DNA of 64,000 bases from Telopea speciosissima (taxonomy: Eukaryota; Streptophyta; Magnoliopsida; Proteales; Proteaceae): NCBI RefSeq assembly GCF_018873765.1, contig NC_057926.1:53147378-53211377 (forward strand). Reading direction: 5' to 3'. The position numbers and the translations under genes were made by a program. Position 1 is the stretch's first letter. The number at the start of each line of letters is the position of its first letter. Shown piece after piece: positions 1,754-60,045 of this stretch. Below the pieces are notes generated by a model, which was not told where the DNA came from, did not search any database, and saw only the letters and a program-made list of their open reading frames with translations.

Positions 1754-3894
1754 GTTATGGTCAATGAGGAATGGCTTTCAGCCTTCCCTACTTCTCATGC
1801 CAACTTTGACAGCCCAAACATTTCAGACCACTCCCCCATCTCTCTAGCTATTCAGCCCTTCCCTTCCTTTGGCCCCAAATCCTTTAAATACTTCGACATG
1901 TGGGCCTCTCACCCCTCTTTTTTAACCACAGTACTTCATGCTTGGGAAAAACCTATCACTGCTTTCTCTTCCCCCCTCATTGCATTTTCTAGAAAGCTCA
2001 AAAATGTAAAGGCAGCTTTCAAGGATTGGAATTCCAATACTTGTGGAAATATATCTCAACAGGTTTTGGAATGCAAGGATAGACTTGGCTAAATTCAGAT
2101 TCGGCTGCAATCGGATCATTGCAATAGTGCTTTAGCAGATGAAGAAAAGGCTACTTCTCTTGAGCTCTTTTCCTTACATGCTCAAGAAGAGAGCTTTCTG
2201 AAGCAAAATTCTAGAATCAAGTGGCTTGAGCTGGGGGACTTTAATTCTGCTTATTTTCACAGATCTCTGAAGGCTTTGATGCAAACTCCATTATTCATCC
2301 TACAGCCTAGGATGGCTCCATTGTCTGCACTGTTAAAGGTATCACAGTCTTGGCTGTTCAGCATTTCAAGGGCCTCTTCTCCAGCTCTCAGTTGGCCTCA
2401 CCTCCCATCCCGAATGGCCTACTCAACAAATTCATCCCCTCGGCCCTCCATGAATATTTGAGCTCCAATCGTAATGAAGACAAGATTGCGGCTGCCATCC
2501 TCTCTCAAGGTTTCGGGAGCCCCAGGCCCGGATGGCTTCAGTATGGGGTTCTTTTTAGCTTCCTGGGACGTTATCAAGCTGGATCTTATTGCAGCCATTA
2601 TGGCTTCAGTATGGGGTTCTTTTTAGCTTCCTGGGACACTATCAAGCTGGATCTTATTGCAGCCATTTTCAGCTTCTTCTACAACCCTTATCAAGTCAAA
2701 GGTATCCACACTTTTCTCTGCCTCATCCCCAAGAAGAAGGTGCCTCTGCTATGAATGATTTAAGGCTCATTACTCTTTGCAACCTCCTGTACAAATTTAT
2801 TGCCAAGATACTTCCTAGGCGGCTCAAAAGTGTGGTGGATATTCTTGTCAGTGACAAACTGACAACCAATCTGCATTCATCCCTGGAAGACTTATCTCGG
2901 ACAACATCCTTATTTGTCATGACATTGTCAAAGCTTTGAGAGGAAAAATCATTCCCCTGCTATTCTCCTAAAGATTGACATCCACAAAGCCCTTGATTCT
3001 TTAAGGTGGGACTTCATAAGTCAGGTGATGACCAAAATGGGTTTTCCTTGTATCTTTGTCAATTGGATTCAGGCTTGCATCTCTTCCCAAAGTTTTCTGT
3101 GCTTGTTAATGGCAGACCGGCAGGCTACTTCGATGCCTCTGTGGGAATTAGACAAGGCTGCCCTTTGTCCCCTTATTTGTTTACTTTGGCTTTGGAAGCT
3201 CTCTCCAGGGACATCCAAATTTGCACTGAACAACAGCTTATGTACCTATGCCTAAGTATAAAGCTCTCAACCTCTCTAAATTGGCCTTTGGGGATGCCTG
3301 ATGATCTTCTCCCAGGCTTCGTTAGCCTCTCTGGAGTGCATTATGCTTTGCTTGCAGCATTTTCATGAGCTATCGGGCCTGCGCATCAACCCCTCAAAGG
3401 CTCCTTTGCTTCAGAGATCTGGTTTTCAAGAAGGACACCTTCCTATTAAGTATTTGGGTCTTCCTTTGATTCCTGCCAGGCTTTCAGATTATCACTGCAC
3501 TCCTCTACTTGACCTCATTCGGAAAAGGCTGCAATTATGGAAAGGAAGCTTCTTTCATATGCTGGTAGGATGGTTCTTATCAGATCAGTCATGGAATCTT
3601 CGTATATCTGGAATCTATGGGTTGCCTCAAGCTACTACAAAGTCCCTGGAATCCCTTTTACCTTCCATCCCCTGGAAGGGCAAAGATACTTCCAGATTTC
3701 TTCACCGCCTTCCCTGGGCTGCTATGTGTCTACCGAAGAATGAAATAGGCTTGGGCAACAGAAAAATCAAAGAAGTAAACTTGGCTAGTATCTTGAAGTT
3801 AATCTGGAAGATTGCTTCCAAGCAAAAGCGCATCAAGGTTGACAGGATATACTCAGGGCCCCTGTGGCATGATTCCATTTAGACGACTTCCCTG
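1754..3894 (+). mobile_element. L1-type LINE fragment, copy 1, inside satellite
   Basis: A 5'- and 3'-truncated non-LTR retrotransposon of the plant L1 type. Pieces of the second ORF are visible in order: the end of the endonuclease ('ISDHSPISLAI'), the linker ('SFKYFDMWASHP'), the reverse transcriptase ('LCNLLYKFIAKIL', 'GIRQGCPLSPYLF', a ruined FADD-type site near 3290-3305, 'LSGLRINPSKA', 'KYLGLPLIPARLS') and the start of the C-terminal part ('GKDTSRFL'). It is spread over several frames with many stops. The zinc-binding and RNase H parts and any poly(A) tail are absent, so the right end is not a natural LINE 3' end. A 68-bp direct duplication lies at about 2533-2668 and is missing from copy 2. 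Forward satellite abuts the left end and reverse satellite the right end. Confidence 0.9.
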
Positions 3895-8200: not shown

Positions 8201-10360
8201 GTTATGGTCAATGACGAATGGCTTTCAGCCTTCGAAACATGACAGGGTTATGGTCAATGAGGAATGGCTTTCAGCCATCACTTCTTCTCATGCCAACTTT
8301 GACAGCCTAGACATTTCAGACCACTCCCCCATCTCTCTAGCTATTCAGCCCTTCCCTTCCTTTGGCCTCAAACCCTTTAAATACTTCGACATGTGGGCCT
8401 CCCACCCCTTTTTTTTAACCACAGTCCTTTAGGCTTGGGAAACACCTGTCACTGCTTTCTCTTCCTCCCTCATTGCATTTTCTAGAAAGCTCAAAACTGT
8501 CAAGGCAGCTTCCAAGGATTGGAATTCCAATACTTTTGGGAACATATCTCAACCGGTTTTGGAATGCAATGACAGACTTGGCTCAATTCAGATTCAGCCG
8601 CAATCGGATCATTGCAATGATGCTTTAGCAGATGAAGAAAAGGCTACTTCTCTTGAGCTCTCTTCCTTACTTGCTCGAGAAGAGAGCTTTCTGAAGCAAA
8701 AATCTAGAATCAAGTGACTTGAGCTAGGGGACTCTAATTCTGCTTATTTCACAGATCTCTAAAGGACAATGTTAATGCAAACTCCATTGTTCATCTTACA
8801 GCCTAGGATGGTTCTATTGTCTCCACTGTTAAAGGTATCAAAGACTTAGCTGTTCAGCATTTCAAGGGCCTCTTCACCAGCTCTCAGTAGGTCTCCCCTC
8901 CCATCCCGAATGGCCTACTCAACAAATTCATCCCCTCGGCCCTCCATGACTCTTTGAGCTCCATTCCTAATGAAGATGAATTTGCGGCTGCCATCCTCTC
9001 TCAAGGTTTCGGGAGCTCGAGGCACGGATGGCTTCAATATCGGGTTCTTTTTAGCTGCCAATGACACTATCAAGCTGGATCTTATTGCTGCTATTGTCAG
9101 CTCCTTCTACAACCCTTATTAGGTCAAAGGTATCCACAATTTTCTCTACCTCATCCACAAGAAGGACAGTGCTTCTGGTATGAATGATTTCAGGCCCATT
9201 GCTCTTTGCAACCTCCTGTACAAATTTATTGCCAAGATCCTTGCTAAGTGGCTCAAAAGTTTGGTGGATATTCTTGTCAGTGACAACCAATCTGCTTTCA
9301 TCCCTGGAAGACATATCTCGGACAACATCCTTATTTGTCATGACATTGTCAGAGCTTTGAAAGGAAAAATCATTCCCCTGCTATTCTCCTGAAGATTGAC
9401 ATCCACAAAGACTTTGATTCTTTAAGGTGGGACTTCATAAGTCCAGGGATGACCAAGATCGGATTTCCTTGTATCTTTGTCAATTGGATTCAGGCTTGCA
9501 TCTCTTCCCCAAAGTATTCTATGCTTGTTAATGGCAGCCCGGCAGGCCACTTCGATGCCTCTGTGGGAATTAGAATAGACTGCCCTTCATCCCCTTATTT
9601 GTCTACTTTGGCTTTGGAAGCTCTGTCCAGGGACATCCAAATTTGCACTGAACAACAGCTTATTGTCCCTTTGCCTAAGTGTATAGCTCTCAACCTCTCT
9701 CATTTGGACCTTGCGGATGACCTGATGATCTTCTCCAAGGCTTCGTTAGCCTCTCTGGAGTCCATTATGCTCATTGCTTGCAGCACTTTTACGAGCTATC
9801 GGGCTTGCGCATCAACCCCTCAAAGTCCCTAATTTTCTTTGCGGGGGATTCGGAGCTGGACAAGGCTCCTTTGCTTCAGAGATCTGGTTTTCAAGAAGGT
9901 CACCTTCCTGTTAAGTATTTGGGTCTTCCTTTGATCCCTGCCAGGCTTTCAGCTCATTACTGCACTCCTATGCTTGACCTCATTCGGAAAAGGCTGCAAT
10001 TATGGAAAGGTAAGCTTCTTTCATATGCCGGAAGGCTAGTTCTTATCTAATCAGTCCTGGAATCTACGTATATCTAGAATATATGGGTTGCCTCCAGCTG
10101 CTATAAAATCCTTGGAATCCCTTTTAGCTTCCATCCTCTTGAAGGGCAAAGATACTTCCAGATTTCTTCATCCCCTTCCCTAGGCTGTTGTGTGTCTGTC
10201 GAAGACTGAAGGAGGCTTGGGAATCAGAAAAATCAAAGAAGTGAACTTCGCCGGTATCTTGAAGTTAATGTAGAAGATTGCTTCAAAGCAAATGAGCATC
10301 TGCGTTGACTGGATATACTCAGGGCCCCTTCGGCATGATTCCATTTGGACGGCTTCCCTG
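8201..10360 (+). mobile_element. L1-type LINE fragment, copy 2, inside satellite
   Basis: Second copy of the same truncated L1 fragment, with the same left junction (after 'cttctgggcgg') and right junction (before 'tcagtttcacc') as copy 1. It therefore arose by duplication of the satellite unit and not by a new insertion. It keeps motifs that are worse in copy 1: 'IPGRHISDNIL', 'LADDLMIFSKAS' (the reverse transcriptase catalytic loop), 'LSGLRINPSKS' and 'IFFAGDSE'. A short repeat of the left edge (the phrase 'gttatggtcaatga' at 8201 and again near 8246) is special to this copy. Stops and frameshifts still rule out a working enzyme. The 68-bp internal duplication of copy 1 is absent. Confidence 0.9.
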
Positions 10361-34248: not shown

Positions 34249-35227
34249 TTATAACATTCCCAACTTACCCTCAAACTTGGTTACAAACTTCTCCAATAAT
34301 GACTTATCACTCTTTATCAACACAGTTCTGATACCATGATCTCTCTCCACTAGACCTTTCATTTGCAAAACTCGAACAGCTGAACACCTTGGGATAACTC
34401 CCTTCTCCAAGCCAAACCCAAGAATTTTTGAGTTCCTCACAATATCTGCCGATTCCCAACCCATTTTTTTAACAAAGAAATCCATGTGGCTCATAGTCTT
34501 CTTTTCATACAGTGTCATAGACCAAGGATACCTCCTAAATACCATGAGAATCTTATTCTCAGAAAAGCCCCACCTTTGATAAGCCTCCAATTTCTGCTTC
34601 TATGTCGATTTGTTCATTGATGCAAACCCATGGTCACAATATTTGACTCAGGTACTCCATTCTTTCTCAAAATTGCCATTTTTGAGCCACATTCTGTATA
34701 TTGCAATTGATGTAACGAGTCTGACGCTTTAGGTCGATAACAACATTCTCCACAGTCCCAACTCCCAACTAAACTCTCGAATAAATGATTTTCTTTTCTA
34801 ATCTAGTGAACAAAACCCTTCTATCTTTGGTGAGGATTTTGGCAATGTTAGGGCTCGAAATGCCAAACGAATGGAAGAGCTCAAGTTTAGGGAGCAGGTT
34901 CTTTGTAGGACTGGCAACGAGAAATGATGGACACTTTCTAATGAGATTGGAAACCTCCGCTTTGGTGAATCTGTGGTTTTTGAAGAGGGAAATAACCAAG
35001 TCTGGTCTATCAGAGAATTCAAAACCAACCTTCTTGGACGCAGAGATGACTGCTGCAGGTGAGAGCCCACATGAGGTGATGAGGTAAGAGACCACGGAAG
35101 TCTCATTTCTTGAGGCTTTTGAGGAGTCGCATTTGAGAGATGAATGGTTTTGCAGAAAATCCAGTTGTGCAGTTGAATCTCTTACAGTTCTCCCAATTGG
35201 GATTCTTTTGAAGAGGAATCTAAACAT
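34249..35227 (-). pseudogene. mTERF-family gene, copy 1, broken
   Basis: mTERF proteins are helical-repeat nucleic-acid-binding factors of mitochondria and plastids that act in organelle transcription and RNA processing. ATG at 35227; the N-terminus 'MFRFLFKRIPIGRTVRDS' looks like an organelle presequence, followed by 'CGLSPAAVISASKKVGFEF' and 'LPKLELFHSFGISSPNIAKIL'. The first ~150 codons are open, then the frame is lost near 34770. About 40 codons present in copy 2 are deleted around 34620-34650, and the C-terminal part resumes as 'MEAYQRWGFSENKILMVFRR' to the stop at 34249, inside the target duplication of the adjacent Pack-MULE-like element, so that insertion changed the end of the gene. 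About 980 bp remain of ~1150. Confidence 0.88.
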
Positions 35228-37447: not shown

Positions 37448-38595
37448 CTATCCTAGTCCTAGCAGAATAATATTCCCTTTGTATAGATCCAAGAGTTGAG
37501 GAACTTCTTTCTCATAGTTGGTCACAAACTTCTCCAAGAAATACTTCTCACTTTTCGTAAACAGATGTCCCATTTTAAGATCTTCCTTAACCAGACCTTT
37601 CAATATCAATACTCGTAAAACTGAACACCTTGGAAGAATCCTCTTCTCCAAGCTAAGCCCAACAAGTTGTGGGTGCGTGATGATTCCCGTTCCCAACCCA
37701 TTTTGTCAACAAAGAAATCTAAATGGCTCTTTATATTCTTCTCAGACAGTTTCATGAAAAAAGGGTACCTCCTAAATGCCAAGAGAATCTCATCCTCAGA
37801 AAAACCCCACCTTCGATAGGCCTCCAATTTGTGCTTCAATGTCGATTTTGTCATTGATGTAAACACAGATAGAACACTCATAAACGTGTACTTTGAAAGG
37901 TCGAAATCCATTTGCTTAATCTCCTCAACCATCTGTTTGAACATATCATTTTTAGGTGTCAACGTTGAGGGATAGTAAGTTAGTAAACTCACGATAATAG
38001 ACTCCGGTACTCCATTTTCTCTCAAGATTGCAATATTTCGAGCCACAGTCGGTATATCACAATTGAAGAAACGAGCTTCACGTTTTAGACCAATAACAAC
38101 ATTCTCTAGAGTCCCAACTAAACTCTTCCAGAAATTAAAAGCAGGGATAGTTTTGTTTTCTAAGCTATGGAACAAGAACTTTGAATCTTTGCCGAGGATT
38201 TTGGTAATGATAGGGCTCGAAACGCCCAACGAATGTAAGAACTCAAGTTTAGGCAGAAGCGTCTTTGTAGGCCTGGACACGAGCAACAATGGGCACTTTC
38301 TAATGAGACTGGAAATTTGGGCATCGGTGAATCCATGGTTTCTGAAAAGGGTAAGAACCGAGTCTGGTCCATCAGAGGATTCAAAACCAACCTTCTTCGA
38401 TGCAGAAAGGGCGGCTGCGGGTGAGAGCCCACATGAGCTGATGAGGTAAGAGACAACGAAAGGATTCTGATTTCTTGAGGCTTTTGAGGAGATGTATTTG
38501 AGAGATGAAGGATTTTGTAGAAAACCAAGTTGGGTAGTTGAACCTCTTATTAAGGTTCTCCCGATTGGGACTCTTTTGAAGAGGAAACTAAACAT
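37448..38595 (-). pseudogene. mTERF-family gene, copy 2, nearly intact
   Basis: The best preserved of the three mTERF copies. ATG at 38595; presequence-like 'MFSFLFKRVPIGRTLIRG', then mTERF repeats with the usual spacing ('LIRKCPLLLVSRPTKTLLPK', 'LLTYYPSTLTPKNDMFKQMV', 'KLEAYRRWGFSEDEILLAF', 'HLDFFVDKMGWERE'). About 300 codons are continuous, then the frame shifts near 37690: four bases present in copy 3 after 'gaacgggaa' are missing. The original C-terminus ('LEKRILPRCSVLRVLILK') continues in another frame to a stop at 37448, while the frame actually read ends about 28 codons after the shift, at 37606. The normal product would be about 380 residues. A protein with an altered tail could still be made, so pseudogene status is probable, not proven. 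Confidence 0.85.
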
Positions 38596-38691
38596 TCGGA
38601 AATGTAACTAAAATCGCAATTAGTAGTGACTAGGAACTTACGGAGGGGTCTTCCGAGACCGCGGCTTCAGTTTCTATTGCTTTCATCCGTT

Positions 38692-46343: not shown

Positions 46344-46830
46344 TTTTTTGCAAATCTATCCAGGATACCTTGGCTTGATGAATCACCACCAGGTTTCCCC
46401 TCCATATCTGATAGTTTCTTCCAATTTTCTCTTCTCTGAGTTCGAGGATAATAATTGATCCGATAAGGGGATTATCATATTCGTATTCGATTAGTTTCGG
46501 GCGGATTTCGATTCTCCTAAACGGATATGGACACGAATCAAATACGGATTTTTGAATCTCCGTTGACATCTTTAGAGATAATGGAATCAACTTACAGCAT
46601 CTCTAATCCCTAAATCATCAAAACACAGACCCCGATTCAAGCAAACAGAAAAGGAAATGAGGATAAACCCCAAATAGAAGAAGGGGTTGGGGGGGGGGGG
46701 GTTAAGAAAACCCAATCAAAACTGATAAGACAAGAAAAATAAACACAAACCATTTCAGAAGTTAGTCTTCCACAAATCCATCACTAAAATCGCCCAATAT
46801 CAAGAAAGTATAAGCGTAAAGGAACACGTC

Positions 46831-46992
46831 TATTTACTTGCCCGTCAATCCCCTCAATTCCCTTTAATAGAGGGAGGTGGATTCCACCCAGGCAGTGTGT
46901 TCGGGTAGGGGGTAGGGTGATCATTTCCATCCACTAGTAGATGGAATTGAAGAAATTGATGGGCAGATAAATTGAGGGGATAAAGATCCCCT
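46831..46992. mobile_element. Hairpin MITE, same family as 19187 and 62995
   Basis: Inverted arms 'cttgcccgtcaatcccctc' against 'gatgggcag...gagggg', with an inner core 'ggtggattccacccaggcag' and 'gtgatcattt' matching the cores of the elements at 19187 and 62995. Right end 'ggggataaagatcc' as in the copy at 19187. Target duplication not clear. Confidence 0.75.
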
Positions 46993-47107
46993 TAATCCAC
47001 TTCAGTATACAAATCCATTTGAAACGTGTTCCTTTCAAAGAAAAAGTGAATAAATAGAGACAACAGAAAAGAAGTATGAACAAAGAAGAATATACTTTTT
47101 TTTTTAT

Positions 47108-47276
47108 GGAAAAAAGTTCTCTGTCCTGGATTGTGGCCTACGCCAGCACTCCCATGTGTCTATCTCTCTCCTCCCTATACAAAAAGACACCTCTACCCCC
47201 TTGTTGTAAGGAAGAGAGAGATAGACACATGAGAATGCTGGTGTAGGCCACACTCCCAGACAGAGAACTTTTTCCC
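47108..47276. mobile_element. MITE with 'gttctctgtc' inverted ends
   Basis: 169-bp element; ends 'ggaaaaaagttctctgtc' and 'gacagagaactttttccc' pair, as do the inner arms around 'actcccatgtgtctatctct'. The flanks are T-rich and give only an approximate 9-bp duplication. A close relative lies at 47533-47705. Confidence 0.85.
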
Positions 47277-47532
47277 TTTATTTTATTTGGAAAGAACCTT
47301 CATCTACAAAGGTACAACTCAAATCAACCAATAAAACCCTAAAAACAAAATAGGGGTAAATCTTTTTCCCTCAAAACTACAAACTATACAAAGTATAGAA
47401 AAGAGTTGTGATTTGGGACCTTTATCCGCTGTCGTGCCGCACGATGGCACAGCAGCGCTGCAGTGCACAGAAGTAGATAAAAATAATCTAGAGGCCCAAG
47501 CAGCGTTTAAAAGAAAAAAGAAAACCAAATAA
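47277..47532. other. Spacer between two MITEs
   Basis: No coding content is supported. 47420-47470 is GC-rich ('gtcgtgccgcacgatgg') for this region, with a small palindrome. Confidence 0.4.
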
Positions 47533-47705
47533 GGGAAAAAGTTCTCTGTCTGGGAGTGTGGCGCACACTACGCCAACACTCCCATGAGTCTATCTCTCTT
47601 CTCCCCATGTGAGAAGACACCTCTACCCCTTATTTTAAGGAAAAGAGAGATTGACATATGGGAGTGCTGGCATAGACCACACTTCTGGTCAGAGAACTGC
47701 TTCCC
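47533..47705. mobile_element. MITE just upstream of the F-box promoter
   Basis: 173-bp element; ends 'gggaaaaagttctctgtc' and 'cagagaactgcttccc' pair. Flanks 'accaaataa' (47524-47532) and 'aacaaataa' (47706-47714) match at 8 of 9 positions, consistent with a 9-bp target duplication. It lies about 45 bp upstream of the first TATA-like box of the F-box gene. Confidence 0.85.
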
Positions 47706-47750
47706 AACAAATAAAAAGGAAGGAAGGCACGTAACGTAACAAACTCCCAT

Positions 47751-47812
47751 TATAAAGTAAAGAAGAAGAAAATTCAACATTATAAACAGCGAAGACAGAG
47801 GACCCGTTCTCT
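47751..47812 (+). promoter_or_regulatory. Probable core promoter of the F-box gene
   Basis: Two 'tataaa' boxes at 47751-47756 and 47781-47786. A CT-rich stretch 25-35 bp after the second ('cgttctcttccttcct', 47805-47820) is a good plant transcription start region. ACGT motifs ('cacgtaacgtaac') lie just upstream at about 47729-47741. Confidence 0.5.
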
Positions 47813-48048
47813 TCCTTCCTAAATCCTAACTTAATCACTGTAATTAGTACGCTGCACGCCTCTTCTCTCATTGGTAAGTTGACAAGTCCTTCTGTTTTCT
47901 TGAATTCCAATTCTTCACACTAAAACCCTAGGAAGGGTTTGTGAGGGAAACTTTGCTCTATATTTATATTAATCTGTTCGATCATGCCGTTCTTTTTTGC
48001 ATTCTTAGGTTTGTAAATCATTATCTTTGATTGACTCATCAAGAGAAA

Positions 48049-49903
48049 ATGATAACTAACAGAGACAGAGATCGTCTTATAAGTCGGAGTAGGAGGAAGG
48101 AGAGGAGGATCAGGACTGACGATGCGGTGGTGGCGGTGGTGGTACCTGAAGCTGTGTTGATCAAAGTGTTTTCATGGCTCCCCGTGAAGTCCCTCCTCAG
48201 GTTCAAGTGCCTAAGTAAACGATGGTTTGATGTCATATCCAGTGATCCTTATTTCATTGACCTCCACTCTCAGCAATCCAATTCCAAATCACCATCTCGT
48301 CTCTTTTCCTTATCACGTAATTTGTTAAGGGAATTCAAGATCACTGATCCTATATCCCACTTATTGCCTACTCGCTTCGATCTGGTATGTCTCAAATCCT
48401 ACGATAAATTTTATGTTTGCAATCCAAGTACACATGAATCCATAACATTGCCACAATTTCGGGATTCTCATAATGCTACCTTCGGTTTTGGATATGTTGA
48501 GTCTACCAACGAGTATAAAATAGTCCATTTCATTGAAACTTGCTTCCCCCCACCCTCATCTTTCTTGGACTCACATTTCTTCCACTTATATGATCCCAAC
48601 CTCCCTAAGGAATGTAGAGTTTTCACCTTGGGAATGGGAAAGGACTCTCCTTCTTCTTATGCTTCTCCTTGGGCTTGGAGACTCGTCGGATATTATCCAT
48701 ATAAGTTCGAGGGTGCTCAATTTCCGGCTTTCATCACCGGAGCTCTTCATTGGTTGATCAACCACCCAGAGCTTCTTATTCAGAAAACAATCTTGGCGTT
48801 CAACTTGGAGAGTGAAGAATTTAGACTCGTCCCACCTCCCAGAGGTTTTAGTGATCTGATACAAATTCCAAAGCATCTCCAATTGGTAGAATTGAGAGGA
48901 TTACTCTGCCTTTCATATGTTGAAAATTACAACAAAATGAACATATGGATGCTGAAAGACTACTACGATAATGAGAGTTGGGCAAAAGAGTACTGTATTG
49001 ATCTGACTCCCTGGATGGATATTCATGGCTATTACAATGATCAGTATTATGTTCCTAAGGACATACTTTAAGGTGCTTATTGAGACGTTGAACGATGGAT
49101 CGTTCTATTTCGATAATCAAACCGCAAGTTTTAGTAAATTTATTTGTGAAGAGACAGGTTCATACATTAAAGGCATTAGTTTCTACAGGGAGAGCCTGCG
49201 GTCACTAAGATATGTACTACAGGTACTGTACCTCTAGCTACTTATTGGGTCATCTTGCTCTGTTTTTTTTGTTCCCTGTTTGTGTTTCTTTGGTGTTTGT
49301 TGTAATACTATTTTTTCCCTTCCTCTTTATCTATCATTCGTTATAGTCTCACTAATGCTTTATTATAAATTGAAGCAGAGAAGAAGTTTGAAGTTTGATC
49401 AAATTACTGGAGTTAGTCCCTCTCAATCACAGCAGTTGGCATACATGGATCCACCAATCTATATTGTGCGCGTTTTTGCATTGTATGCCAATCCAGGTTA
49501 TTCCTATTCTTATGGGGGATATCTCACAAATTTTAGAGGTGGTTTTGTTGCCATCGAAGGGAAGTTAATAGATGCAAGAGATTCCATTGAAGCAGATGCG
49601 AAAGCCATTCTTTGTGGGTTGGAATTTGCTCATCGGCTACGTAGACAGCGCATTGGTTCGATTTCTGAAGGCTGGGAGCTAGTTGATGCTATTAATGTTA
49701 CTGGAGAAAGGCAAACTTTTCATCCAAGGGTGGAAAAGATTCTTACCAGGATTACTCATCTTCTTTCTGAATTTAATTGGGCTCAAATATTCTATGATCA
49801 AAGACTATCTACTCAGGTGGCTTGCCAAATTGCTTGTGAGGCTATACGGCGGCAGAAGGATAGGTTATATTTTGATCCACCTGAGTGGTTCATAGATGGG
49901 TGA
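48049..49903 (+). CDS. F-box/FBA protein with C-terminal RNase H-like domain
   Basis: Exon 1 48049-49222, intron 49223-49378 (GT...CAG, phase 0), exon 2 49379-49903. F-box proteins are the substrate-recognition subunits of SCF ubiquitin ligases; the F-box here is at residues ~27-70 ('VLIKVFSWLPVKSLLRFKCL'), followed by an F-box-associated domain ('YVCNPSTHESITLP', 'KMNIWMLKDYYDNESWAKEY'). Exon 2 has the pattern of plant RNase H-like (RVT_3) domains: 'GGYLTNFRGGFVAIEGKL', 'SIEADAKAILCGLEFA', 'SISEGWELVDAIN', 'TRITHLLSEFNWAQIF'. Only the Glu of the catalytic set is clear; the Asp positions are replaced, so it is probably non-catalytic. One break: a single extra T near 49065-49070 puts a stop at 49069-49071, after which the FBA tail ('TLNDGSFYFDNQTASF') and the splice continue in the next frame. 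A possible 5'UTR intron is 47874-48008. A TTG further upstream was not taken as start. Sequencing error or recent inactivation are both possible. Confidence 0.8.
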
Positions 49904-50595
49904 ACCACCTAATTATGTGGCTTCATTAACCTCTTTCTACTTCTATAGATTCCAATGTAATGCATATCATTCTACCCAACTAAGGTAGAGGCGATAATAT
50001 GGTAAAAGGAGAGAGAGAGAGGGTTGGAAGTTTTACTTCTGTTAGACTGCAACTACACTTCACATTTCCACCAACAGTTTGAAAGTGATTTGTATGTGTA
50101 AATTGTTTAAGTTTCTATGATGAAACAACCAAAATGCTCTCCATTGTTCATTTTGGGGAGGGAGGGAGGGACAAAAACTTAAACAAGGGAGGTGCAAATC
50201 ATTTCCAAACTTTTGAAGCTTTGAATTCTCAGGAGTTTGATAACAAAGAAGCTATGTGGAGTTCCAAAACTTAAAAACGGCAATCACAAAGTACAGTGAA
50301 GTATTAAAAAGAGAAGTCCCAATGGAGTTCTCATATACAGAAATCTCATATTTTGTATAGAATGAGTAATAAGTTTACATATTTTTGGGTGGGTAAAACA
50401 AAGAAATGGTGAAATGGTTAAATGGGCAATGGGCATTCATTATCATAAGAATCAACATGGTGTGAATTCTACAACAATTAAGCAATCTACATCAAATTCA
50501 ATCCAACAATAACAAACTAGGCTAAGAATTGAACTCCCCAAAAAGACTATACAAGAAGTGGGAAAAAAATGAAAAAAGAGTGTAAACCTCGGCAA
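49904..50595. other. 3' flank of F-box gene and spacer
   Basis: AT-rich, with a GA tract near 50009-50021 and a G-rich patch near 50154-50170. No coding frame. The two genes are convergent across this spacer. Confidence 0.6.
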
Positions 50596-51171
50596 TCAGA
50601 TGATGCCAAGCTTACCTTCATCAGCTGCATGAACTGGCACTGGTGGCTCCCCTCTTGGAGGCTCATCGAGGTGGATGTGAGCGTAGTTGTTAAGGATCCC
50701 TGTACTCTGCCTAGAAATACTCTCCTTCTTCTCTTCCTCGGCTTTTTCAACCTTGTCCTTCATCATCTGGCTCAAGTCCTCAGCCGCCTTGGCAACCATG
50801 CTCAAGGCACTTGACACCCATGATGCACCACCCGAGATGTAGCGATACTCCATCAGGGCTGACCCTGTACTGCTTGCCTTCTGCTCAGCCAATGCAATGG
50901 CTGATCTTGTCTTCTCAGACACCTGGAACCGCTCATCCACCAACCTCATCTTCTCATTGACCAAAGTAGTCCCAATGGTTATCTTTTCTCTCAGGCCCAT
51001 CCTTCTGTCAAGGGACAAAACAGTAACAGAGGCATTTGACGTCAAGTGATGCCGTTCATCAAAGGTCCTGGCCTTGTTAAGGGCATCCTTCCCCAGTACA
51101 AACCCCTTAGCAAGCATGCTGCTTACCACATCCTCAGCCTTCTTAACAGCTGAATTGGCATTACAGGGCTT
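50596..51171 (-). pseudogene. BPA1-like (binding partner of ACD11) terminal exon
   Basis: A single exon on the minus strand, acceptor 'gtggtag' at its upstream edge, stop at 50596. The product matches the C-terminal part of plant BPA1/RRM-containing proteins: 'KKAEDVVSSMLAKGFVLGKD', 'GLREKITIGTTLVNEKMRLV', 'QVSEKTRSAIALAEQKASS', then 'ISGGASWVSSALSMVAKAAE' and the tail 'HIHLDEPPRGEPPVP'. These proteins bind ACD11, a sphingolipid transfer protein that holds cell death in check. The exon is fully open and its tail is typical. The N-terminal RRM exons, expected upstream, are not found in 51.2-60 kb; instead repeat elements start 150 bp away. It is either a decapitated gene or one with an unusually long intron. 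Confidence 0.7.
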
Positions 51172-51318
51172 CTACCACATAAAGAAATCGTTAAAGGGAA
51201 ATTGCTTAAAATATGGAAGAGGGAAGAAAGTTTCTCTTAGCATGAACATGCATGTACAAACAAAATCGTAAAACCTATCAGGGGTCAATTTACTGACAAT
51301 AATATAATCACTAGTTCC

Positions 51319-51728
51319 AGGGGTGTCAAACGGTTGGTTCGGTCCAGTTTCGGTTAAGTCAAACCAGTTTCATGCTGGTAATAGGCCAACCGAAACGAAA
51401 CCATTAAGCCAAAAGTTGGTTTTGGTCCAGTTTGAATCGGGGTTTTATTGAGTTAATGTAGCGGGTTGTTATCGGGCTGCTACTGGTTCGTTTTCTCCAT
51501 GAATATGCATTTAAAAAGTACTGAAAATAATGCCTTTTGTGTTAGACTTTTTTTTTTTTGGGGGGGGGGGGGGGTTAGTCTTTTATCGGTTTCAGCCAGT
51601 CCAATTCGTTTTTGTATCTACCAGTTTCATAAAATCCCAAACTGAAACAAACCTACAGAGGTTTGGTTTGGACTAAATTGGTCGATTTTGGTTGGAAAGA
51701 CCGGTTTGAGCTGGAAATTGACACCTCC
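51319..51728. mobile_element. Non-autonomous TIR element, 'ggggtgtcaa' ends
   Basis: Begins 'aggggtgtcaa' and ends with the complement 'ttgacacctcc'. The interior is built of 'ggttcggtccagtttcgg'-like sequence that pairs with 'accggtttgagc' at the other end. A C/G tract ('ttttggggg...') lies at 51542-51574. Target duplication uncertain. A common plant non-coding element type, perhaps hAT-related. Confidence 0.65.
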
Positions 51729-58900: not shown

Positions 58901-60045
58901 TCAACCCACTTCCTCAATTCCATCTCCTAGTCCTAGCAGACTAGTATTTCCTTTGTATAAATCCAAAAGATGAGGAACTTCTTTCTCATATATGATCACA
59001 AAATTTTCAAAGAAATGCTTCTCACTCTTTATCAACAGATGTACCATTTTAAGATTTTCCTTCACTAAACCTTTCAATATCAATACTTGTAAAACTGAAC
59101 ACCTTGGAAGAATCCTCTTCTCCAAGCTAAGCGCAAGAAGTTGCCGGCGTGTGATGATAACTTCCCGTTCCCAACCCATTTTGTTAACAAAGAAATCCAT
59201 ATGGCTTGTTATCTTCTTCTCAGACGCTGTCATAAAAGAAGGGTACCTCCTAAATGAAACCCCACCTTCGATAAGCCTCCACTTGCTGCTTCCATTTCGA
59301 TTATTTCATTGATGTAAACACAGATAGAGCCCTCATAAATGTGTATTTTGAAAGATCAAAATCCATATGCTTAATCTCCTCAATCATCTCTTTGAACAGA
59401 TTATTTTTAGGAGTCCACGATGTGGGATAGTAAGTTAGTAAACGCAGGATAATGGACTCCGTTACTCCATTTTCTCTCAAGATTGCAGTATTTCGAGCCA
59501 CAGTCTGTATATCACAATTGATGAAACGAGCTTCACGTTTTAGACCAATTACAACATTCTCCAGAGTCCCAACTAAATGCTTCCATAAATAAAAACAGGG
59601 ATAATTTTGTTTTCTAAGCTACGGAACAAGAACTTTGAATCTTTGAAGCGGATTTTGGCAATGTTAGGGCTCGAAACGCCCAAGGAATAGAAGAACTCAA
59701 GTTTTGGGAGAAGGGTGTTTGTAGGACTGGCAACGAGCAATAATGGATACTTTCTACTGAGTCTAGAAATCTGGGCTTCGGTGAATCCATGGTTTCTAAA
59801 GAGGGTAAGAACGGAATCTTGTCCAGAGGATTCAAAACCAACCTTCTTGGATGCACAGATGGCAGCTGCGCGTGAGAGCCCACATGAGCGGATGAGGTAA
59901 GAGACCCTGAAAGGGTTCTGATTTCTTGAGGCTTTTGAGGAAATGTATTTGAGAGATGCAGGGTTTTCCAGAAAACCCAGTTGGGTAGTTGAATCTCTTA
60001 TTAAGGTTCTCCCTATTGGACTATTTTGAAGAAGAAACTAAACAT
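58901..60045 (-). pseudogene. mTERF-family gene, copy 3, broken
   Basis: Homologous along its whole length to mTERF copy 2. ATG at 60045 ('MFSFFFKIV'), but the frame is lost within the first dozen codons where copy 2 reads 'RVPIGRTL'. Open pieces remain at 59614-59883, 59301-59501 ('LLTYYPTSWTPKNNLFKEMI') and 58901-59233 ('HMDFFVNKMGWEREVIITRR', 'LEKRILPRCSVLQVLILKGL'). About 30 bp around 59255 (the 'GFSEDEIL' part) are missing. It keeps the four bases lost in copy 2. A dead copy. Confidence 0.88.

Follow-up and report, generated by a model that had tools for sequence, protein, structure and literature searches.

An F-box/FBA gene family of Telopea speciosissima with a predicted RNase H-like exon at its 3' end

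The classes of plant F-box proteins are defined by the recruitment module at the C terminus, which selects the substrate; SKP1 is bound by the F-box. The described proteins closest to the gene studied here are the plant F-box/FBA proteins (PF00646 with PF07734 or PF08268; TIGR01640), in which an N-terminal F-box is followed by the FBA region and of which many broken copies exist. The waratah family shares both characters with them and differs in having an extra C-terminal RNase H-like exon. This exon resembles the RVT_3 domain (PF13456) of plant L1-type elements and cellular genes in a 108-column profile match which includes the helix with the conserved Glu, but three catalytic Asp are lost, and the host is an F-box gene and not an element. 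A third comparison is offered by the NLR proteins with integrated domains (NLR-IDs). Fusions of RVT_3 to NLRs were reported in 7 species and integrated domains were proposed to be baits (PMC4759884), and RVT_3 is also contained in the integrated-domain list of PMC8832786. The integrated RVT_3 domain is the common character here; the difference is that the hosts are NLRs, not F-box proteins. The authors of PMC4759884 found insufficient evidence for transposon activity generating NLR-IDs. A pairing of an F-box with RVT_3 or RNase H was not found in open-access text, and one may be listed in the supplementary domain-combination table of PMC3030570, which covers 3,269 combinations in 10,811 F-box proteins. 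The terms RVT and reverse transcriptase were absent from the main text of the F-box family papers examined.

The window, which is the whole stretch of 64,000 nucleotides analysed (C11:53147378-53211377), carries one copy of the gene with the following features, copies A and I and loci B, D and G being other members of the family:

48049..49071, plus strand: exon 1, first reading frame, 340 residues (sequence; Pfam; TIGR01640)
about 48145-48255, plus strand: F-box within exon 1 (Pfam)
about 48733-49041, plus strand: FBA domain within exon 1 (Pfam; TIGR01640)
49067..49069, plus strand: frameshift scar, TTT replacing about 14 bases that are kept in copies A and I (three-way alignment)
49069-49071, plus strand: stop TAA closing the first frame of exon 1 (sequence)
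49070..49222, plus strand: continuation of exon 1 with the last part of the FBA region (...SLRSLRYVLQ) in a shifted frame; read without a shift in loci B, D and G
49223..49378, plus strand: phase-0 intron of 156 nt, CAG/GTACTG...GAAGCAG/AGA (GT-AG in 11/11 copies)
49352-49356, plus strand: CTAAT site in the intron (present in 9/11 copies)
49379..49903, plus strand: exon 2, predicted RVT_3/RNase H-like domain with a tail ending DPPEWFIDG (Pfam; family alignment)
about 49514-49837, plus strand: RVT_3 match within exon 2 (Pfam)
49901-49903, plus strand: exon 2 stop TGA, the coding part being 49379-49900 (sequence)

Exon 1 as a whole extends over 48049-49222, across the frameshift. When its part up to 49068 (48049-49068) was compared with Pfam, the F-box was matched at E 2e-7 (31.1 bits, curated cut-off 20.5), FBA_1 at E 2.1e-5 (24.9 bits, cut-off 21.1) and FBA_3 at E 3.5e-5 (24.2 bits, cut-off 20.7), and the F_box_assoc_1 model TIGR01640 matched exon 1 of the window at E 3.8e-20 (72.2 bits, cut-off 37.9). 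The F-box scored 39.3 bits in locus B, where TIGR01640 scored 69.2 bits and no FBA Pfam model was found at E 0.01. A search of the PDB with exon 1 of the same locus gave 25 matches, including F-box only protein 2 at 0.023.

The interruption of exon 1 had been ascribed in the preliminary description to a single extra T at about 49065-49070. This proved to be wrong. In a three-way alignment with the two closest copies, A (C11:53.08 Mb) and I (C11:50.45 Mb), the TTT at 49067-49069 stands in for about 14 bases, which is a net loss of 11 nt, and since a loss of 11 and a gain of one give the same frame register, the earlier misreading is explained. The replaced bases are kept in both A and I, which carry other lesions, namely one stop and a one-base loss in copy A and two one-base gains in copy I. 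The one-base lesions of these two copies could be assembly errors; the 11-nt scar resembles the product of end-joining and is unlike a homopolymer read error. Because it is absent from A and I, the deletion in the window is probably very young. Judged from its sequence, the window copy is thus best described as a recently disabled family member, from which the fusion cannot be encoded in one frame.

A remaining function of the window copy as a truncated F-box protein of 340 residues, for instance as a competitor of intact members, appears improbable. Such a protein would lack the RNase H tail and the last part of FBA. In its favour, the F-box and most of the FBA region are open. Also in its favour, the gene body, counted with its intron, has 17 differences from copy I in 1844 sites, in comparison with 35 in 1189 sites of the downstream flank (gene-versus-flank Fisher P 4e-5), and since the gene body is the closer of the two, this hints that it was constrained or converted until recently. 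The probable youth of the deletion speaks against a working truncated protein, as does the fact that frameshifted F-box pseudogenes are common in plants (PMC3030570). A duplicated segment containing the F-box gene and its flanks was seen at about 46549-51400 of the window and at C11:50453167-50458020.

Two foldback elements were found close to the gene, on its upstream side:

47108..47276, no strand: foldback element resembling a MITE, a neighbour of the F-box gene and outside its coding part
47533-47705: second foldback (MITE-like) copy

The pair is located 0.3-0.9 kb upstream of the F-box gene. The arms of the first element are 87% complementary, and the two copies are 80-87% alike piece by piece. 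Elsewhere in the window, three open frames of the mTERF family were recognized on the minus strand, at 34772-35227 (E 2.9e-8), 37609-38607 (6.1e-28) and 59576-60037 (3.9e-9). They share similar N termini and form a local group, two of them being short and perhaps truncated. The plus strand carries a reverse transcriptase fragment at 9344-9829 (RVT_1, 1.8e-12), and words like those of this frame were noticed by eye at 3280-3879, also on the plus strand, where Pfam gave no match at E 0.01. An open frame at 50596-51171 on the minus strand presumably resembles the last exon of an ACD11-binding-partner (BPA1-like) gene; Pfam gave no match to it at E 1.

A search of the genome with exon 2 returned 25 matches at E 0.01 or better. 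One of these, on C6 (L033, 24% identical), was dropped, as by eye it is an ordinary RVT_3 domain with its Asp residues and lies outside the family. The other 24 rows were reduced to 19 places, and at 16 of the 19 an F-box/FBA match was located upstream, on the same strand and within 5 kb. With this linkage the loci constitute a gene family in which the pairing is beyond chance, and exon 2 as an unrelated neighbour was rejected; that exon 2 belongs to a separate retroelement, the case named in the preliminary description as its refutation, is unlikely for the same reason. At C9:28.00 Mb the start of exon 2 lies beside an F-box part at 27.99 Mb and the remainder follows about 9 kb onward, a split which suggests an insertion. 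Two further places, C11:50971298 and C9:12953845, are exon-2 fragments, and an F-box part of their own was not found in the stretch of surrounding sequence covered. Outside the 19 places, locus P (C11:53.07 Mb) is an F-box locus with approximately the first 26 residues of exon 2 only and with an unaltered intron donor.

The splice boundaries are shared among the copies. In all 11 copies compared, the GT-AG ends are at the same place, and the introns start with GTA after AG, end with CAG and are in phase 0. The donor is CAG/GTACTG in five of the 11 and a close variant in the rest. Nine of the 11 have CTAAT some 25-35 bases upstream of the acceptor, D having CTTAT and J TTAAT, and the length of the intron ranges from 105 to 924 nt. 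Open frames extending from the ATG to the donor and across exon 2 were seen at three of the 16 linked loci, namely B (about C11:53065380-53067722), D (about C11:56001812-56003676, minus strand) and G (about C11:50977801-50980204, minus strand); each of the remaining 13 has one or both exons damaged by a stop, a frameshift or a truncation. The architecture described at the outset, with an F-box/FBA part, a phase-0 intron and an RVT_3 exon, is therefore real and recurs across loci with the same boundaries. One could still suppose that exon 2 is a separate transcription unit or the remnant of a retroelement, which was duplicated beside F-box genes and never spliced to exon 1. This would agree with the outcome of a search of the genome for a spliced retrocopy with the junction peptide, in which none was found and the matches were exon-2 starts only, with the two fragments that have no F-box part of their own nearby, and with an open frame of 123 residues at locus G, on the opposite strand about 0.8 kb past exon 2, which is LINE fragment-like by eye. 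Given the match of donor, acceptor and phase across the copies compared, and the fact that at B, D and G the open frame of exon 1 continues into exon 2, we regard a separate unit as very unlikely.

The assignment of exon 2 was based on several profile comparisons. The exon of the window matched Pfam RVT_3 at E 9.7e-7 with 29.2 bits, above the cut-off of 21.6, and four members including it scored 29.2, 55.4, 43.1 and 38.1 bits against the same cut-off. All 7 exon-2 members scanned matched RVT_3 at E 0.1 or better, the best at 7.4e-15. In a profile-profile comparison the exon-2 family aligned with eight RVT_3 domains of the same genome over 108 columns (95.8%, E 6.6e-9), a narrow comparison set, because six of the eight are near-copies of one element. 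The only NCBIfam match of exon 2 was a haloarchaeal RNase HI model at E 0.035 (14 bits, cut-off 300). A PDB search with exon 2 alone gave 9 matches with E values from 0.1 to 0.86, none of them significant, among which was ribonuclease H1 (4e19) at E 0.62. The exon-2 alignment gave 3 PDB matches, none a significant RNase H; the best, at 0.0039, was to a designed repeat TIM barrel in which none of the repeats reached significance by itself. Single-sequence structure predictions had a mean pLDDT of 36.0 for exon 2 and 33.7 for exon 1, and as these models are too poor, the fold rests on the sequence profiles. By these, exon 2 is predicted to be an RNase H-like (RVT_3) domain.

The catalytic residues were followed in an alignment of 7 members, which are those with exon 2 open over its full length, damaged copies being excluded. 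The catalytic Glu is kept as Glu71 of exon 2 and is invariant in the 7 members. The first catalytic Asp is replaced by the invariant Phe33 in RVFA, a position placed by eye and outside the profile alignment. The third acidic position is occupied by Glu in the window copy and by Asn, Lys or Thr in the other members, and in place of the last catalytic Asp the window copy has Cys149, the others Cys or Val. Of the D-E-D-D set of active RNase H, only the Glu is thus present in the 7 aligned members. The earlier statement that the catalytic Asp positions are lost stands, for one of the three by eye; the Glu is retained, so not all of the catalytic residues are gone. Because three catalytic Asp positions are not Asp, cleavage by the exon-2 domain as a nuclease is unlikely.

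Selection was assessed separately for the two exons. The dN/dS ratio of exon 2 was 0.57-1.08 (28 pairs of 8 copies, of which copy E has a stop), and that of exon 1 was 0.46-0.78 (6 pairs of 4 copies, of which copy H has a stop). Five pairs were tested against a dN/dS of 1. For exon 2 the P values were 0.026 (D-H), 0.30 (B-G) and 0.90 (the window copy and F), and for exon 1 they were 9e-9 (B-H) and 0.08 (D-G). The differences in exon 2 at the three codon positions, in 7 copies, were 0.218, 0.188 and 0.198. Such ratios together with near-equal codon positions indicate that constraint on exon 2 is weak or mixed with diversification. Hypervariable columns with at least four residues numbered 19, compared with 14.4 +/- 3.4 in a neutral simulation in which 112 of 1000 runs reached this number; the excess was not significant and diversifying selection is therefore unsupported. 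Invariant columns, in contrast, were 60 of 168 ungapped columns and exceeded the 40.1 +/- 5.2 of the neutral simulation, a number attained by a single run in 1000. At 7 of the 19 places the whole of exon 2 is an open frame, and the simulated probability of being stop-free at 0.125 changes per site was about 0.09 for each drifting copy (binomial 7e-4, which assumes independence of the copies). Between loci B, D, G and H (six pairs), the synonymous divergence was 0.27-0.35 for exon 2 and roughly twice as high, 0.43-0.70, for exon 1; conversion of exon 2 or poor alignment of exon 1 could account for the difference.

These values bear on the possibility that the exon was captured by chance and is a non-specific tail, passively tolerated in a short-lived F-box lineage which is dying out by drift. 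The damage at 13 of the 16 linked loci, the dN/dS of exon 2 and the lack of a significant excess of hypervariable columns all fit this, and F-box genes of narrow distribution are described as being under relaxed selection and F-box pseudogenes in general as numerous (PMC3030570). Drift does not account well for the 7 of 19 places with an open exon 2, for the excess of invariant residues over the neutral simulation, or for the gaps among the 7 open copies, which are all multiples of three (partly a matter of the choice of rows, which were picked as open). Drift is a doubtful explanation, although it is a stronger competitor than a truncated protein or a separate unit. Apart from drift, the sequences would be compatible with an exon 2 that is a partly constrained scaffold and otherwise free to change, or with a constraint that was lately relaxed, and the data do not separate the two. 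Extensive amino-acid change on a partly invariant scaffold would fit with a changing partner, and relaxed constraint would fit equally.

The origin of the fusion was examined with the F-box parts. In a maximum-likelihood tree of 22 F-box proteins those of 7 exon-2 carriers made up one clade (100/99), and eleven related C5/C1 proteins were outside it; the other exon-2 carriers, which are broken or partial, are omitted from this tree. Scanned with the exon-2 profile, 14 related C5/C1 F-box stretches, for most of which about 1.3-1.5 kb downstream was covered, gave no match below E 2.5, and the genome searches with exon 2 gave no family match at the C5/C1 relatives among the matches listed. One carrier clade together with 14 relatives in which the exon was not found within the sequence covered suggests a single fusion event. 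In 11 of the 14 relatives shown, a CAG/GTA follows the FBA region at the corresponding position or close to it, sometimes in a different phase. Since relatives keep this site, a last intron that existed before may have taken up the RNase H exon. As to the source of the domain, the matches of exon 2 in the genome outside the family were 19-39% identical with E 6e-4 or worse, among the matches listed, and a protein-level search of the genome for a donor gave weak scattered matches only, again among the matches listed. These are too weak for a donor to be named. Derivation from a LINE, as had been proposed, is plausible; an archaea-like RNase H was acquired by plant non-LTR elements and is also found in plant cellular genes (PMC5348765), and either could therefore have been the source.

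The explanation we prefer, and consider moderately probable, is that the copy in the window is a recently disabled member of a family whose intact members are lineage-specific SCF substrate receptors with a catalytically dead RNase H-like binding module. According to this proposal, an F-box/FBA family would once have gained a 3' RVT_3 exon, probably through its last intron. In the intact members the F-box would bind SKP1 in an SCF ubiquitin ligase, and the substrate would be bound by a surface to which both the dead RNase H fold and the FBA region contribute, with the RNase H fold being a binding module for protein or nucleic acid and not a nuclease. The most likely role of the RNase H-like tail, as far as can be judged from the sequences, is that of an added binding surface. 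As NLRs with integrated RVT_3 exist and integrated domains are proposed baits, a bait role is also conceivable by analogy for the tail of an F-box protein. A more far-reaching version, which is decidedly speculative, would make the catalysis-stripped RNase H a sensor arm of the SCF ligase that captures proteins of retroelements or pathogens, or the RNA-DNA hybrids carrying them, for destruction. The captured targets would then be those which bind RNase H folds, in parallel to the integrated domains of NLRs, and this part of the idea is to be taken as no less speculative.

Loci B, D and G constitute an intact and testable set of members. If the single capture of a retroelement-type RNase H exon, its spread and its loss of catalysis are true, the family would be a clean case of the gain of a receptor module via the last intron, and a family combining an F-box with an RNase H-like domain would, if true, be an F-box parallel to the integrated domains of NLRs.
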